The translations under genes were made by a program, and so were the position numbers. Shown in pieces: positions 3,531 to 28,182 of a stretch of DNA of 32,994 nucleotides (positions are counted from its first letter, which is position 1; every line of letters starts with the position of its first letter). This DNA comes from an uncultured Lachnospiraceae bacterium. GTDB taxonomy: Bacteria; Bacillota; Clostridia; Lachnospirales; Lachnospiraceae. Location: NCBI GenBank assembly GCA_947626795.1, contig CANQTH010000028.1, forward strand, positions 1 through 32,994, given 5' to 3'. Below the pieces are notes generated by a model that saw nothing but the letters and a program-made list of their open reading frames with translations, was not told where the DNA came from and searched no databases.

Positions 3531-3669
3531 GTAATAGTTTGGCCCAGGACTTTGCACTTGCTGCAAAGTCCGTAAGAACGTGTAAATTTTGCCGGGTGGG
3601 AATCCGGCTCTTTGCCGAAGGCAAATTTGGAATGAGCCGGATTCCGTAACTGTGAGGCCGAACTGTTAC
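3531..3669 (+). repeat. Dispersed GTAAC element, copy B (full length)
   Basis: Begins GTAATAGTTTGGCCC (variant left end) and ends AACTGTTAC. Stem 1 is GGACTTTGCA-CTTGC-TGCAAAGTCC at 3547-3571. Stem 2, AATCCGGCTC (3601-3610) with GAGCCGGATT (3634-3643), encloses an inner TTTGCC-GAA-GGCAAA hairpin. The right end lost the AGGCTG part of the terminal repeat. The copy lies between the DegV fusion gene and the hisS promoter. Confidence 0.9.
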
Positions 3670-7057: not shown

Positions 7058-7100
7058 GTAACCGTTCAGCCTGGGGCTTTGCGCTTGCCAAAGTCTTGGG
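7058..7100 (+). repeat. Dispersed GTAAC element, copy H (left-end fragment)
   Basis: Left terminal repeat GTAACCGTTCAGCC followed by a degenerate stem 1 (GGGGCTTTGCGCTTGCCAAAGTC). The remainder of the element is missing. It lies between aspS and the TrpB-like gene. Confidence 0.7.
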
Positions 7101-8758: not shown

Positions 8759-9391
8759 ATGAGAAGCGGAATTTTATTTGATCTGGATGGGACGCTGTGG
8801 GATTCCTCGCGGGAGGTCGCGGCTTCCTGGGACGCGGCGGTAAGGAAGCGCGGCTTGAAGATGCGCGTGACCGTGGAAATGATCCAGGGCGTCATGGGGA
8901 AGAGCATGGACGAGATCGCCGACATCGTGTTTGGGGAATACGGCAGGGCAAAGCGGCGGGAGCTGCTGGAGTTTTGCTGCGAGGAAGAAAACGCGTACAT
9001 CCGCAGCCATGGAGGCAGGCTTTTTGAAGGGCTGGAAGAGACGCTTTCCCGGCTGAAGGAGGAAAAGCTCCACTTATCGGTCGTGAGCAACTGTCAGGTG
9101 GGGTATATCGAGGCGTTTCTGGAATATCATAAGCTGGGGGCATATTTCGACGACTTTGAGAGCTACGGGCGGACGGGGCGGGACAAGGGAGAGAACATCC
9201 GCCTTGTCGTGGAGCGGAACCGTTTAGAAAAGGCCGTGTACGTGGGCGACACCCAGGGGGACCGCGACGCGGCCGCAAGGGCGGGGATTCCGTTTATCCA
9301 CGCGAAGATGGGATACGGGACGGTGAGCGGGGACGTGCCGCAGATCTGCAGCCTGTCGGAATTGCCGGAGGTCTGCAGGGTATTTCTGTAA
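8759..9391 (+). CDS. HAD-superfamily hydrolase (phosphoglycolate-phosphatase-like)
   Basis: A 210-aa HAD phosphatase of the Gph-like type with an alpha-helical cap. Motif I is FDLDGT with nucleophile Asp8 and Asp10. Motif II is the SVVSN segment. Motif III/IV are the lysine in GRDKGEN and GDTQGDRDAA. The substrate cannot be read from sequence. I chose the ATG at 8759 (MRSGILFDLDGTLW), which has AAGGAAAGG with 9-nt spacing. The longer frame from 8630 adds 43 residues without family support. The TAA stop (9389-9391) is part of the GTAA that begins a decayed copy of the dispersed element. Confidence 0.88.
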   Translation: MRSGILFDLDGTLWDSSREVAASWDAAVRKRGLKMRVTVEMIQGVMGKSMDEIADIVFGEYGRAKRRELLEFCCEEENAYIRSHGGRLFEGLEETLSRLKEEKLHLSVVSNCQVGYIEAFLEYHKLGAYFDDFESYGRTGRDKGENIRLVVERNRLEKAVYVGDTQGDRDAAARAGIPFIHAKMGYGTVSGDVPQICSLSELPEVCRVFL

Positions 9392-9431
9392 AACGTTCAG
9401 CCCAGGGTATTGCGCCTGCCGCAAAGCCCGC
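9388..9431 (+). repeat. Dispersed GTAAC element, copy I (decayed left end)
   Basis: GTAAAACGTTCAGCCCAGG followed by a mutated stem 1 (GTATTGCGCCTGCCGCAAAGCCC). It starts within the stop codon of the HAD gene. Nothing beyond stem 1 is recognisable. Confidence 0.65.
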
Positions 9432-9507
9432 GAGGCTGGACATTACAAATTTTATGGACGCCTCCGGATCCGGCAGGGATGGGGGCGCAAAAGAAAGGAA
9501 GAGGGAT

Positions 9508-9999: not shown

Positions 10000-10031
10000 G
10001 CAAGCCGCCGGGAAGAAGAAAGAAAAAGAGG

Positions 10032-10172
10032 GAACAGTTCAGCCCAGGACTTTGCGCTTGCTGCAAAGTCTGTAAGAATGTGTAAATTTTGCCGGGTGGG
10101 AATCCGGCTCTTTGCCGAAGGCAAACTTGAAATGAGCCGGATTCCGTAACTGTGAAGCCGAAGGCTGAACTG
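10032..10172 (+). repeat. Dispersed GTAAC element, copy C (full length)
   Basis: Runs from GGAACAGTTCAGCCCAGG to GGCTGAACTGAT. Stem 1 is GGACTTTGCG-CTTG-CTGCAAAGTC with slight mismatch. Stem 2, AATCCGGCTC / GAGCCGGATT, and the inner TTTGCC-GAA-GGCAAA hairpin are intact. It lies between luxS and mtnN, so a luxS-mtnN transcript would carry the folded element internally. Confidence 0.9.
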
Positions 10173-10195
10173 ATATAAAAAGAGGGAGAGAAGAG

Positions 10196-15926: not shown

Positions 15927-16286
15927 GAATGATAAGGTTTTGACTGAAGTTTTACCACAAAAATTATTATAAAGTTTTGCCCATTATTGAATGGGCAGCG
16001 GAATGGATTGATGAGGCTTACAGAGTTCTTTCAAAAAATGACAGTATGGTTATTTTAAGAAACATCTTGAATTTATGAAAAAATTAAAACAAAATGCGGA
16101 TTATATTCAGATAGACAAAGTGGATGAATTTTTTGAAAGTTTAAAAGGAGAGCAACAGGGTGAAAGGAAAACAGGATAGATTGACGGTGCAGCAAAAAGC
16201 AGCAGATGGCAGAGATTATACATTGTATTATCTCTTGGTATGTTGGGGAATGTCCTGTTTAAACAATTGACAAAACGCGAGGAAGG
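15927..16286 (+). other. AT-rich decaying intergenic patch with small ORF remnants
   Basis: No intact gene seen. 15944-16078 is open and encodes EWAAEWIDEAYRVLSKNDSM, which resembles the segment after motif IV of DNA N4/N6 methyltransferases (weak). 16075-16179 encodes a 34-aa lysine-rich peptide (MKKLKQNADYIQIDKVDEFF). 16160-16270 is a GTG-started 36-aa frame with AAAGGAG upstream. None can be assigned. Base composition matches the truncated ATP-binding gene to the left. Confidence 0.5.
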
Positions 16287-16405
16287 GTAACGGTTTAGCC
16301 TCAAGAATATGCAAATTTTGCCAATTGGGAATCCGGCCCTTTGCCGAAGGCAAACTTGAAATGAGCCGGATCCCGTAGCTGTGAGGCCGAAGGCTGAACT
16401 GTTAC
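16287..16405 (+). repeat. Dispersed GTAAC element, copy D (stem 1 deleted)
   Basis: Left end GTAACGGTTTAGCC, right end GGCTGAACTGTTAC. The GGACTTTGCA hairpin is missing, replaced by TCAAGAATATGC. Stem 2 has compensating-looking changes: ATCCGGCCC / GAGCCGGAT with the same inner TTTGCC-GAA-GGCAAA. It lies just upstream of the aldolase promoter. Confidence 0.85.
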
Positions 16406-16427
16406 GAGGAAGGCGGGATCGGCTGGC

Positions 16428-17602: not shown

Positions 17603-18898
17603 ATGAGCGTACAGGTAGAGAATTTGGAAAAAAACATGGCGAAACTCACGGTCGAGGTTCCTGCGGAAACGGTGGAAAAGGCGATCCAGAACGCATATCT
17701 GAGGCAGAAGGGCAGGATCAGCATCCCGGGCTTCCGCAAAGGGAAAGTGCCGCGCGTCATGATCGAGAAGATGTACGGCGCAGCCATTTTTTATGAGGAC
17801 GCGGTAAATGAGATGCTGCAGGACGAGTATCCGAAGGCGGTGGACGAGTCGGGCGTCGATATCGTGTCCCGCCCGACGATCAATGTGGAGCAGATCGAGA
17901 CGGGGAAGCCGTTTATTTTCACGGCGGAGGTCGCGGTGAAGCCGGAAGTGAAGCTGGGCGATTACGTAGGCGTCCAGGTGGAGAAGGCCGACACGGACGT
18001 GACGGAAGAAGAGCTTACGGCGGAAGTGGAGCGTGAGCGTGAGAGCAACGCGCGTATGATCACGGTGGAAGGCCGCGCGATCGAAGACGGGGACACGGCG
18101 GTCATTGATTACGAAGGGTCGGTCGACGGCGTGCCGTTCGAGGGCGGCAAAGGGGAGAACCATCCCCTTGTCATCGGGTCCCATTCTTTCATCGACACGT
18201 TCGAGGAACAGTTGATCGGGAAGAACGCGGGGGACGAGACGGAAGTGAACGTCACGTTCCCAGAGGAATACCATGCGGCGGAGCTGGCGGGCAAGCCGGC
18301 CGTCTTCAAGGTGAAGATCAACGAGGTCAAGTCCAAGGAGCTTCCGGAGCTGGACGACGAGTTCGCGCAGGACGTTTCGGAATTTGACACCTTGGAGGAA
18401 TATAAGGAAGATCTGAAGAAGCAGATCGCGCAGCATAAGGAAGCGGACGCGAAACGCAAGCAGGAAGACGAGGCGATCTCGCAGATTGTGGAGAAGTCCG
18501 AGATGGAGATCCCGGACGCGATGGTGGACACGCAGGTGCAGTCCATGATCGAGGATTTTGAGAGCAGGCTGATGCAGCAGGGGCTTGCCCTTGATCAGTA
18601 TATGCAGATGATGGGGATGACGATGGAGGGGCTGGACGAGCAGATGCGGCCGGAGGCTTTGAAGCGCATCCAGACCAGCCTCGTTCTGGAAGCGATCGCG
18701 CAGAAGGAACAGATCGAAGTCACGGAGGAAGACGTCAATGCCGAGATCGAACGCGTTGCGTCTCTTTATGGCATGGAAGCCGACAAGATGCGGGAACAGG
18801 TGCAGGGAAGCGTGGAAGAAGGCATGAAGAAAGACCTTGCCGTGCAGAAGGCGGTAGACTTTATCATGGAGCATGTGCAGGAATGTGAGAAGAAGTAA
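17603..18898 (+). CDS. tig: Trigger factor (ribosome-associated chaperone, peptidyl-prolyl isomerase)
   Basis: Binds the ribosome exit tunnel and shields nascent chains. The 431-aa length and the three-domain layout are typical: an N-terminal ribosome-binding domain with signature GFRKGKVPR; an FKBP-like PPIase domain at about residues 150-245 (EDGDTAVIDYEGSVDG, VTFPEEYHAAELAGKPAVF); and a long helical C-terminal chaperone arm. AAGGAGG lies upstream of the ATG. It leads into clpP, clpX and lon, the conserved proteostasis cluster. The TAA stop at 18896-18898 lies inside the first bases (GTAACAG) of a dispersed element copy, which ends the gene after CEKK. Confidence 0.97.
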   Translation: MSVQVENLEKNMAKLTVEVPAETVEKAIQNAYLRQKGRISIPGFRKGKVPRVMIEKMYGAAIFYEDAVNEMLQDEYPKAVDESGVDIVSRPTINVEQIETGKPFIFTAEVAVKPEVKLGDYVGVQVEKADTDVTEEELTAEVERERESNARMITVEGRAIEDGDTAVIDYEGSVDGVPFEGGKGENHPLVIGSHSFIDTFEEQLIGKNAGDETEVNVTFPEEYHAAELAGKPAVFKVKINEVKSKELPELDDEFAQDVSEFDTLEEYKEDLKKQIAQHKEADAKRKQEDEAISQIVEKSEMEIPDAMVDTQVQSMIEDFESRLMQQGLALDQYMQMMGMTMEGLDEQMRPEALKRIQTSLVLEAIAQKEQIEVTEEDVNAEIERVASLYGMEADKMREQVQGSVEEGMKKDLAVQKAVDFIMEHVQECEKK

Positions 18899-19040
18899 CA
18901 GTTCAGCCCAGGACTTTGCACTTGCTGCGAAGTCCGTAAGAACGTGTAATTTTGCCGAGCGGGAATCCGGCTCTTTGCCGAAGGCAAACTTGAAATGAGC
19001 CGGATTCCGTAACTGTGAAGCCGGAAGGCTGAACTGTTAC
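18895..19040 (+). repeat. Dispersed GTAAC element, copy E (full length, best terminal repeats)
   Basis: 146 bp with perfect 14-bp terminal inverted repeats, GTAACAGTTCAGCC (18895-18908) and GGCTGAACTGTTAC (19027-19040). Inside are stem 1 (GGACTTTGCA-CTTGC-TGCGAAGTCC, one mismatch), stem 2 (AATCCGGCTC / GAGCCGGATT) around TTTGCC-GAA-GGCAAA, and a small AGCC-GGAA-GGCT hairpin overlapping the right end. It contains the tig stop codon. No coding capacity. It can fold into a closed multi-stem structure. Confidence 0.93.
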
Positions 19041-19048
19041 AAGAAGAA

Positions 19049-19121
19049 GTAACAGTTCAGCCCAGGACTTTGCACTTGCTGCAAAGTCCGTAAGAACGTG
19101 TAATTTTGCCGAGCGGGAATT
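19049..19121 (+). repeat. Dispersed GTAAC element, copy F (left half, tandem to copy E)
   Basis: Left terminal repeat and perfect stem 1 (GGACTTTGCA-CTTGC-TGCAAAGTCC), then stops at GAGCGGGAAT, at the beginning of stem 2. The preceding AAGAAGAAG repeats the last tig codons, so copies E and F look like a tandem duplication rather than independent arrivals. Confidence 0.88.
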
Positions 19122-19183
19122 CAGACAAAAAGATAAGGAATGACGCCCCGCGCGGGGGAGCAAAGAGATAGGAGGGATAGACA

Positions 19184-19768
19184 TTGAGTTTAGTGCCTTA
19201 TGTCGTAGAACAAACCAGCCGGGGGGAGCGGTCGTATGACATTTACTCCAGGCTGTTAAAGGACCGGATCATTTTCCTGGGAGAGGAAGTCAACGAAGTG
19301 ACGGCGGGACTGGTGGTCGCGCAGCTCCTTTTCCTGGAATCGGAAGACCCCGGGAAGGATATCCATCTATATATCAATTCCCCGGGCGGGGTGGTGACGG
19401 CCGGGCTTGCCATCTATGATACGATGAATTATATCAAGTGCGACGTCGAGACGATCTGCATCGGCCTTGCGGCGAGCATGGGCGCGTTTTTGCTGGCCGG
19501 AGGCACGAAAGGGAAGCGGTTCGCCCTGCCGAACGCCGAGATCATGATCCATCAGCCGTCCGGCGGCGCGAAGGGGCAGGCGACGGATATCCAGATCGTG
19601 GCGGACAACATCTTGAAGACCAAAAAACGGCTGAACACGATATTGTCGGAGAACACGGGGAAGCCGTATGAGGTGATCGCAGCAGATACCGAGAGGGATA
19701 ATTATATGTCTGCGGAGGAAGCAAAGGAATATGGACTGATTGACGGCGTAATTACAAACAGAAAGTAA
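19184..19768 (+). CDS. clpP: ATP-dependent Clp protease proteolytic subunit
   Basis: Tetradecameric serine peptidase that degrades substrates fed by ClpX. It is 194 aa, with catalytic Ser98 (GLAASMGAF), His123 ([10 protein letters not shown]) and Asp172 (TERDNYMS). The handle motif [10 protein letters not shown] is present. Translation starts at a TTG (19184) with AGGAGGG upstream; the following [20 protein letters not shown] is the normal ClpP N-terminus, so the non-ATG start is well supported. clpX follows 54 bp later. Between tig and this gene lie elements E and F; no clear promoter was found there. Confidence 0.97.
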
Positions 19769-23415: not shown

Positions 23416-23429
23416 GAACAGTTCAGCCC
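23416..23429 (+). repeat. Dispersed GTAAC element, copy J (vestige of left end)
   Basis: Only GAACAGTTCAGCCC remains, directly after the lon stop codon, then unrelated sequence carrying the engB ribosome binding site. It matches the left terminal repeat and is too short to be sure alone, but the position fits the pattern of the other copies. Confidence 0.5.
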
Positions 23430-26077: not shown

Positions 26078-26878
26078 GTGGGCCTTTCCTGGATGCAGTA
26101 TGATTTCATGCGATACGCCTTCGCGGCGGTCCTGGTGATCACGCCGTTGTTCGGGCTGATGGGGACGATGGTCGTCAGCCGGAAGATGGCGTTTTTTTCA
26201 GATGCGCTGGGGCATTCCGCGCTGACGGGGATCGCGGTCGGCGTCGTGTGCGGCGTGCGGGACACGGATGTGTCCATGGTGATCTTCGCGATCGTGTTCG
26301 CGCTTCTGCTGAACCGGATCAGCAGCCGCATAGCGGCTTCCGCGGACACGGTGATCTCCGTGTTCTCTTCCTGCAGCATAGCGGTCGGGCTTGCGATCCT
26401 GTCAAAGGACGGGAATTTCAGCAGGTATTCCGGCATCCTGGTGGGCGACGTGCTGAGCATCACCCGGCGGGAGATCCTGTACCTTGTCCTGATCTTTGTT
26501 ATCACGCTCGCGTTTTGGCTCTTCGGGTTCAACAAGATGCTGGCGGCGAGCTTAAACCGCGCGCTGGCGAAGAGCCGGAACATCCCGGTCGCCTTTTTGG
26601 AGAACGCCTTCGCGGTCCTGACGGCGCTGGTCGTCATGGTGTCCATCAAATGGGTGGGGATCCTGATCATCAACGCGCTCTTGATCCTGCCTGCGGCCGC
26701 GAGCCAGAATATCTCTGAAAATATGCGGGAATACCATTTCTTTTCCATTCTGTTTTCCATGTTTTCCGGCGTGACGGGCCTTGTGCTTTCTTATTATGTC
26801 AATGTAGCGGCCGGGCCGGCCATCGTGATCCTCGCTTCGGCGATCTATTTTGCGACATATCTATGGGGAAGCCGGTAA
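26078..26878 (+). CDS. Metal ABC transporter permease
   Basis: A 266-aa integral membrane protein of the ABC-3 (ZnuB/MntC) family with about eight hydrophobic segments. Signature-like stretches are SDALGHSALTGIAVG near residue 42 and WVGILIINALLILPAAAS. It completes a three-gene metal importer; the metal is not determined by sequence. The start is a GTG at 26078 with AAGGGGG 8 nt upstream; an ATG at 26071 is out of frame and opens only a 10-codon ORF. The TAA stop (26876-26878) lies inside the GTAATAG that begins dispersed element copy G. Confidence 0.92.
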   Translation: MGLSWMQYDFMRYAFAAVLVITPLFGLMGTMVVSRKMAFFSDALGHSALTGIAVGVVCGVRDTDVSMVIFAIVFALLLNRISSRIAASADTVISVFSSCSIAVGLAILSKDGNFSRYSGILVGDVLSITRREILYLVLIFVITLAFWLFGFNKMLAASLNRALAKSRNIPVAFLENAFAVLTALVVMVSIKWVGILIINALLILPAAASQNISENMREYHFFSILFSMFSGVTGLVLSYYVNVAAGPAIVILASAIYFATYLWGSR

Positions 26879-26950
26879 TAGTTTGGCCCAGGACTTTGCA
26901 CCTGCTGCAAAGTCCGTAAGAATGTGTAGATTCTGCCGAGTGGGAATCCG
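26875..26950 (+). repeat. Dispersed GTAAC element, copy G (left half)
   Basis: Starts GTAATAGTTTGGCCC, the same variant as copy B, has stem 1 GGACTTTGCA-CCTGC-TGCAAAGTCC, and ends at GTGGGAATCCG at the start of stem 2. It contains the stop codon of the permease gene. It breaks off within a few bases of where copy F does. Confidence 0.88.
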
Positions 26951-27050: not shown

Positions 27051-28172
27051 ATGAAAAAGTCTGTAAAATACTTAAAAATACTGGTCAATCTGCTTGTTGC
27101 CGTATTTGTTATTTTCTGCATCTGCTTTGTCGTTCCCAGGGCAGCTGTCTTTTTCATGCCTTTCGTGGTAGGTTGGGTCATATCCATGGTCGCCAACCCG
27201 TTGGTGCATTTTTTGGATAAAAAGCTGAAGATCGTCAGGAAACACGCCTCGATCATGGTCATCATCGCCGTATTGGCGGCCGTGATCGGATTGGGATACC
27301 TGGGGATCTCGCGCATTGTGGTCGAGGCCGTGAACCTGGTGGAGAGCCTGCCCGAGCGGTACGAGGGGCTTCAGGAAGAGTTTGCGGAGATCGAGGAGAA
27401 CCTCCAGGTCTTTTACAGCCGCCTCCCGCAGAACATCCAGGAAAATATCACGGGAGTGGCGGACGGCCTTTCTGATTATGTCGGCGTCGTCGTGCAGAAG
27501 ATCGGCGAGCCGACGTTCGACGCGGCTGGGAATTTTGTGAAGAACGTGCCGGGCGCGCTGATCGCGATCATCATCAGCATTCTTTCCTCTTACTTTTTCA
27601 TCGCGGACCGGGAGCGCATCCTGGAAGGCCTCCGGGCGCATATGCCGCGGGGCGTGTGGGATCGGGTTTCCGGCGTATGGAATGACTTAAAGCGGGCGGT
27701 GGGCGGATATTTTAAGGCTCAGTTTAAGATCATGGCCGTGATCTATGTGATCCTTGTGATCGGGCTTTTGGTTCTGAGGACGGATTATGTGCTGTTGGCC
27801 GCGCTCTTGATCGCGTTTTTGGATATGCTCCCGTTTTTTGGGACGGGGACGGTCTTAGGGCCATGGGCCGTCATCAAGCTTTTGTCCGGCGATTACCGGA
27901 CCGCGGCCGGGCTGGTCATATTGTATGCGGTCACGCAGGTGGTGCGCCAGGTGATCCAGCCGAAGATCGTGGGCGATTCGATCGGGATGAGCCCGCTGAC
28001 GACGTTGTTTTTCATGTATATCGGATATAAGGTCAGCAGCATTTTGGGGATGATCATTGCCGTCCCGGTCGGGATGATCCTGATCAACCTTTACAAGGCG
28101 GGCGTCTTTGACAACCAGATCCGGTGCGTCCGCGAGCTGGTGGACGATATCAACGAGTTTCGGAAATTTTAG
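27051..28172 (+). CDS. AI-2E/PerM-family membrane transporter
   Basis: A 373-aa polytopic protein with seven to eight hydrophobic segments and a soluble amphipathic loop at about residues 85-150 (VESLPERYEGLQEEFAEIEENL). The C-terminal half shows family traits: DMLPFFGTGTVLGPWAVI, QPKIVGDSIGMSPLTTL and GMIIAVPVGMILINLYK. Members include TqsA (autoinducer-2 export) and cation/proton exchangers, so the name does not fix the substrate. luxS occurs in the same window, but not adjacent. The ATG at 27051 (MKKSVKYLKILVN) with AAGGG upstream is preferred over 27000, which lies within the promoter. The TAG stop is followed at once by a run of G. Confidence 0.9.
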   Translation: MKKSVKYLKILVNLLVAVFVIFCICFVVPRAAVFFMPFVVGWVISMVANPLVHFLDKKLKIVRKHASIMVIIAVLAAVIGLGYLGISRIVVEAVNLVESLPERYEGLQEEFAEIEENLQVFYSRLPQNIQENITGVADGLSDYVGVVVQKIGEPTFDAAGNFVKNVPGALIAIIISILSSYFFIADRERILEGLRAHMPRGVWDRVSGVWNDLKRAVGGYFKAQFKIMAVIYVILVIGLLVLRTDYVLLAALLIAFLDMLPFFGTGTVLGPWAVIKLLSGDYRTAAGLVILYAVTQVVRQVIQPKIVGDSIGMSPLTTLFFMYIGYKVSSILGMIIAVPVGMILINLYKAGVFDNQIRCVRELVDDINEFRKF

Positions 28173-28182
28173 GGGGGGGGGG
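28172..28182 (+). repeat. Run of 11 G abutting a stop codon
   Basis: Eleven consecutive G, the first being the last base of the TAG stop of the AI-2E-family gene. Such tracts are unstable during replication. Here it lies outside the coding frame, 120 bp before the diguanylate cyclase start. The exact length may also be a sequencing uncertainty. Confidence 0.85.

Follow-up and report, generated by a model that had tools for sequence, protein, structure and literature searches.

Between tig and clpP lies a 146 bp sequence with paired ends and nested stems, and pieces of the same sequence recur across the window (by which we mean the whole stretch of 32,994 nucleotides that was analysed). The initial annotation offered three descriptions, a MITE, a REP-type element or a mobile RNA structure, and the locus raises the question of which of these it is, how it came to lie between these genes and what keeps its stems intact.

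Structure and copies of the element

The full element occupies 18895–19040 on the + strand. Its terminal inverted repeats, GTAACAGTTCAGCC (18895–18908) and GGCTGAACTGTTAC (19027–19040), match at 14/14 bases, and the TAA of the 5' repeat (18896–18898) is the stop codon of tig. Hairpin 1 (18911–18935; GGACTTTGCA) has a 10 bp stem and a five-base loop, with one change in the 3' arm that gives a G–U pair. Hairpin 2 (18962–19008) has a 12 bp outer stem, AATCCGGCTC, around an inner 6 bp hairpin at 18974–18988 (TTTGCC-GAA-GGCAAA), and in hairpin 3 (19009–19040) an internal end-like motif (19009–19022) pairs with the 3' terminal repeat. The ends and both of the 10 bp stems described in the initial annotation are as claimed, apart from the one G–U pair; this third copy of the end motif was absent from it. 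The 3' end has two alternative partners, the internal motif (hairpin 3) or the 5' end. Hairpin 3 has a tandem G–A/A–G loop, seen in 88/136 and 86/125 cells when 147 matches are aligned by fitting them to the local structure. The folding z-score of the element is −7.4, and the other strand also folds strongly (−7.7). As had been proposed, no protein is encoded: the 146 bp are not called as a gene, only 1/186 copies lies inside a called gene and the antisense frames through the element are open by chance, with no sign of use. Scanning both strands of 18850–19190 gave neither an intrinsic terminator nor a sigma-70-like promoter. Rfam gave no match at the gathering score in the window and two chance-level matches (E of 1 and 8.9) in 18850–19200.

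All ten places at which copies had been listed in the window hold element sequence, some with corrected limits. A full element lies between luxS and a phosphorylase-family gene (corrected to 10031–10176), with an 8/8 duplication at 10023–10030 and 10177–10184, and a 119 bp element without hairpin 1 (16287–16405) also has an 8/8 duplication (16279–16286 and 16406–16413). The near-full element at 3531–3669 lacks a clear target duplication (2/8). The remaining copies are a second element next to the reference copy, present as a 5' fragment (19049–19123); another 5' fragment (26875–26950), the TAA of which terminates the upstream ABC-3 gene; the 3' part of an element truncated by the contig start (1–63); an eroded 5' fragment consisting of an end and hairpin 1 (corrected to 7058–7096); a 59 bp short form read by eye as end, hairpin 1 and end (corrected to 9388–9446); and a lone end sequence (23416–23429). 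Sequence profiles recover eight of the ten places at E ≤ 0.001 and that at 7058 at E ≤ 0.01; the 23416 site is matched by the end motif only. Every copy in the window is on the + strand, as had been noted, and the genes called there are also all on + except for one at the left edge, so that the 'same orientation' of the copies amounts to the direction of the genes. It does not extend to the genome, which carries end-like sites on both strands (153 forward, 157 reverse). Elsewhere in the window, a run of about 11 G (approximately 28172–28182) begins inside the stop codon of the gene ending at 28172.

The element is not confined to this locus. The source genome (G000) is a 2.89 Mb draft in 144 contigs, 96% complete, and contains 310 end-like sites with at most one mismatch vs one for a reversed-pattern control, and 121 hairpin 1 sites with at most two mismatches vs none for the control; together with the folding z-score, these counts exclude chance. 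A sample of 832,994 bases, comprising the window and 40 stretches of 20 kb (one of which, L069, was placed knowing the end sites), was searched with three profiles, one derived from 34 copies of the source genome and the others from 16 and ten copies found in relatives. The profiles gave 100 non-overlapping matches, 36 of them near full length, or about 1.2 per 10 kb. Among the end sites of the sample, 84 lie inside known copies and 28 outside, the latter inspected by eye across no more than 170 bases. DNA matches were found in 13 of 61 genomes (the source genome included), 12 of one genus and one (G031) of another, and the hairpin 1 pattern was found in five of 250 genomes across the family. 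The core 27-mer occurs in seven stretches from records titled uncultured Roseburia, Eubacterium, Lachnospiraceae and Clostridia. Plasmid and phage records gave no match, and viral contigs gave none for hairpin 1.

Insertion, decay and the search for a partner

The reference copy is flanked by an 8 bp target duplication at 18887–18894 and 19041–19048 (7/8 match), a feature absent from the initial annotation. Such duplications are common in the family: among sampled near-full copies, 14/35 match at 7 or more of the eight positions in exact register, and with a slip of up to three bases the count is 16/35 vs 1/35 for random flank pairs. Taking all genomes together, and allowing a slip of one base, 64 of the 98 testable full copies match at seven or eight of eight positions and 34 do not (the base is 100 full copies, two of which lie too close to an edge). 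By genome, the fractions are 25/54 in G000, 10/12 in G028, 11/11 in G025, 5/5 in G011, 3/4 in G031 and 1/1 in each of G013 and G003, with 8/10 at other loci. The tig–clpP distance here is 285 bp, with the full element and the second fragment in between, and in 27/27 readable relatives this spacer, read by eye, is element-free and only 12–127 bp long; at two further loci no tig adjoins ClpP. The tig proteins of the relatives are 66–73% identical, and the exact target is thus not readable from the empty spacers. In one relative (G006; L212) the spacer holds a different short tandem repeat, with about 127 bp between the genes. The paired ends, the 8 bp duplications and the element-free spacers are as expected of a MITE that a DDE-type transposase mobilizes in trans and bear out the first description in the initial annotation. 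The element is a MITE that inserted with an 8 bp stagger and then decayed in place; we have very little doubt about the class.

Decay can be followed at one site. A contig from a metagenome-assembled genome (uncultured Clostridia bacterium isolate Lapin-030 bin27; L100), which aligns with the window along 3.3 kb at 98% identity, holds a 146 bp copy at the 16287–16405 site, where the copy in the window lacks 27 bp including hairpin 1 and has the same 8 bp duplication. The 119 bp copy thus arose by internal deletion. Shortened copies in general measure about 119, 72, 55–59, 47 or 31 bp. The 31 bp palindromes consist of hairpin 3 alone (L038:14725–14755, with an 8/8 duplication, and L053:15962–15992, with 7/8) and may be either end-products of deletion or the smallest mobile form.

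A DDE-type transposase acting in trans would bind the 14 bp ends GTAACAGTTCAGCC and insert the element by 8 bp staggered cuts, which would leave the 8 bp duplications. The element might instead be derived from IS66 and mobilized by an IS66-family transposase, since it starts with GTAA and makes 8 bp duplications, while the ends given for that family in the excerpt of PMC11946415 are GTAAGCG with 8 bp repeats; IS66 genes were also found in seven of the eight related genomes searched. The end letters after GTAA differ, however, and G011-type ends begin GTTAC. The sole IS66 locus with readable paired ends (L105) has GTAAGCGCC rather than GTAACAG, and no IS66 match (PF03050) was obtained in the G000 draft, from which the gene might be missing, or in G011, despite its 44 exact end-pattern sites of nearly uniform sequence. 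We regard this derivation as unlikely. Nor did the G000 draft match PF00872 (IS256) or PF01609 (DDE_Tnp_1), or G011 match PF00872 or PF01797. G011 has two PF01609 matches, one of which (L133) adjoins a single element end in the manner of an insertion sequence lying beside or in a copy; this 575-residue transposase gene, which we take to be IS1634-like, was considered as the autonomous partner and rejected, as a second matching end was not found. Spread of a REP-type palindrome by a RAYT (Y1 transposase), the second description in the initial annotation, would suit a small intergenic hairpin, and G000 does have one Y1_Tnp gene. The product of this gene has 152 residues, an ordinary size for IS200, and the gene is not near a terminal-inverted-repeat pair with duplications. 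The paired ends of the element carry 8 bp duplications, and Y1_Tnp matches are missing from three of the seven element-bearing genomes searched (G011, G017 and G276), which makes the REP type very improbable.

The expectation of a transposase or RAYT gene with ends matching those of the element was not borne out at 45 transposase loci: within the approximately 1.5 kb of flank available for each, there are no paired ends of the element type with duplications, and single end-like motifs occur in five (L120, L121, L133, L140 and L141). Among end pairs 160–6000 bp apart in the G000 sample, likewise, none bounds an element of transposon size that combines good ends with a duplication. One of the loci examined, L128:703–2567, has a 497-residue frame with a weak Transposase_mut match between 13-of-16 inverted ends with an 8/8 duplication; these ends are unlike those of the element. 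According to the excerpt of PMC2229807, the partner transposase is often missing for bacterial MITEs, and the failure to find one here, which does weigh against our explanation, is therefore not taken to exclude the MITE class.

Hairpin conservation and orientation

The hairpin plan is maintained across species and genera through compensatory changes. When 19 copies are aligned by sequence alone, 93.3% of cells are paired and both sides have changed in 13 of the 40 pairs; the covariation score is above that of each of the 500 shuffles and every slid version, and for one of five covariation measures, further pair types, the shuffles were not clearly exceeded (62/500). In the structure-fitted alignment both sides have changed in 39/40 pairs (shuffled mean 28), with a covariation score of 0.261 vs 0.103. 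The elements of G011, G031, G013, G010 and G025 have the same plan with different stem letters. Hairpin 3 is paired in 0.87–0.98 of cells at ten of 14 positions among the 147 fitted matches, with weaker pairing at two loop positions and at positions 120 and 122; the alternative end-to-end pairing is at 0.59–0.85 in this set, which includes many fragments missing one end. End-to-end pairing also covaries, and the two are nearly alike in full copies (94% for hairpin 3 vs 91%) and in the 19 varied copies (90.7% vs 89.8% of cells), so that we claim no preference between them. Divergence among full copies is 0.047 in hairpin 1 vs 0.108 in the linkers. Low divergence of fragments was set aside as proof of constraint because fragments are detected by their conserved part. 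Strand-specific wobble pairs, which RNA should show, are mixed, in counts that inherited changes enter many times: G–U exceeds A–C in hairpins 1 and 3 but not in hairpin 2, and wobble pairs were dropped as proof of RNA for this reason.

Orientation was scored against genes called by a simple codon-score method, with copies counted singly (tandem ones included); the strand of a few near-palindromic short fragments may be wrong, from which noise rather than bias is expected. The 186 distinct copies comprise 132 in spacers between co-directional genes, 25 between divergent and eight between convergent genes, 20 at edges and one inside a called gene. In the co-directional spacers the ratio of sense to antisense copies is 103:29. 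This sense bias is stronger in decayed copies: the ratio is 46:23 for full copies (32:14 for copies with duplications) and 57:6 for decayed copies (Fisher p = 0.0013 for full vs decayed), the latter made up of 5' fragments (32:6), 3' fragments (19:0) and other fragments (6:0). Outside G000, full copies have no clear bias (19:12, p = 0.28) and decayed copies stand at 12:1. Sense-placed copies start a median of 32 bases (full copies, n = 48) or 15 bases (5' fragments, n = 36) from the stop codon of the upstream gene. Stems that mutate without compensation in copies with no preference for 3' ends were accordingly not what we saw: the stems compensate and many copies closely follow gene ends. In ten of 111 sense-placed copies the preceding gene terminates in bases 1–4 of the element (nine with the TAA of the element and one with a TGA). 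We considered whether supply of a stop codon explains the sense bias and rejected this, since it concerns these ten copies only and the bias persists at 70:23 after removal of copies within five bases of the upstream gene.

That the bias is mild in full copies and strong in decayed ones suggests that selection after insertion favours sense copies, perhaps through their folded RNA. Copies sit between genes, often just 3' of a stop codon, and read in sense the insert can fold into three local hairpins, the third from the internal end-motif copy and the 3' end. Sense copies would then outlast antisense copies, which would be lost, and would be tolerated or even useful as structured RNA spacers in mRNA, with possible effects on 3'-end stability, processing or translation termination; internal deletions then shorten copies. 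We consider RNA-level selection on sense copies a candidate with an even chance of being correct, having lowered our estimate because hairpin 3 is hardly better kept than the end pairing in full copies. The description of the element as a mobile RNA structure is supported in part, by compensatory changes and sense bias.

The hairpins could also have been conserved for transposition, as binding sites or single-strand DNA structures that source elements require and inserted copies simply inherit, with the sense bias produced by transcription-coupled insertion or by antisense harm for unrelated reasons. We find this somewhat less probable than selection on the RNA, though it deserves serious weight. 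Both strands of the element fold strongly, the low divergence of hairpin 1 relative to the linkers could stem from active source elements, and the copies that bear duplications are already mildly sense-biased. Against this, the bias is far stronger in decayed copies without one end, which points to loss after insertion, and duplicated forms without hairpins 1 and 2 exist (the 31 bp form at L038), although these may be post-insertion deletions. Taken as a whole, the explanation that combines a MITE with RNA-level selection on its sense copies is one that we hold to be probable.

Related elements and known systems

One related genome, G028, has 82 end sites (vs one for the control), and the stretches retrieved from it contain three 133 bp copies with the three-hairpin plan, all with 8/8 duplications. 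Alongside these are elements of 174–176 and 73 bp (L224:293–466, L225:290–463, L226:265–440, L228 and L229:321–393) with the same 14 bp ends and different hairpin interiors, which were read rather than folded. In L228 the copies are arranged head to tail; of the single elements, 3/4 have 7-of-8 duplications by eye. A 460 bp element (L223:4338–4797) has perfect inverted GTAACCATTCAGCC ends, no duplication and a longest inner frame of 110 residues. One end type is thus common to different interiors. A wider and decidedly tentative reading, which we think is probably not correct in full, is that GTAACAGTTCAG-like ends with 8 bp duplications have spread several hairpin modules in Lachnospiraceae (of about 131–146 bp with the three-hairpin plan, and of 174 and 73 bp with other hairpins) that hosts have kept as sense-strand parts of mRNA. 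If so, the modules would supply intercistronic and 3'-UTR RNA structure in mobile form, with some further transposase family as the driver.

A literature search with the end and hairpin letters, and by topic in titles and the starts of abstracts, returned nothing evidently on this element. The closest systems are likenesses of type. In the excerpt of PMC2229807, the NEMIS/Correia elements of Neisseria are similar in size (about 105–155 bp), inverted ends and target duplications, and their folded transcripts are proposed as RNase III targets; they differ in having TA at the ends and a 24 bp end repeat, where the present element has 14 bp GTAAC ends, 8 bp duplications, the three-hairpin plan and a Lachnospiraceae host. 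The same excerpt describes ERIC of enterobacteria as a 127 bp intergenic MITE the orientation of which affects mRNA stability; ERIC has TA ends, a 7 bp end repeat and open reading frames, of which there is no such evidence here. It also describes RUP of Streptococcus pneumoniae, a 107 bp non-coding Firmicute MITE with about 108 intergenic copies, a TA target and ends matching IS630-Spn1, whereas our element is without a found partner IS. EFAR of Enterococcus and bcr1 of Bacillus cereus, Firmicute MITEs that adjoin genes in the excerpt of PMC3733652, are likened here by description. The ends, the length of the duplication and the hairpin plan are peculiar to the element, and we therefore file it as a new MITE family, with a likeness to NEMIS and ERIC drawn by analogy from what the excerpt of PMC2229807 describes. 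MITEs with folded transcripts are already known in Proteobacteria and some Firmicutes; the present family is dense, has copies with intact duplications and has stems that covary between genera, and the rise in sense bias, mild among full copies and strong among decayed ones, offers a gauge, read from sequence alone, of the way in which insertions in transcribed spacers are sorted by selection.
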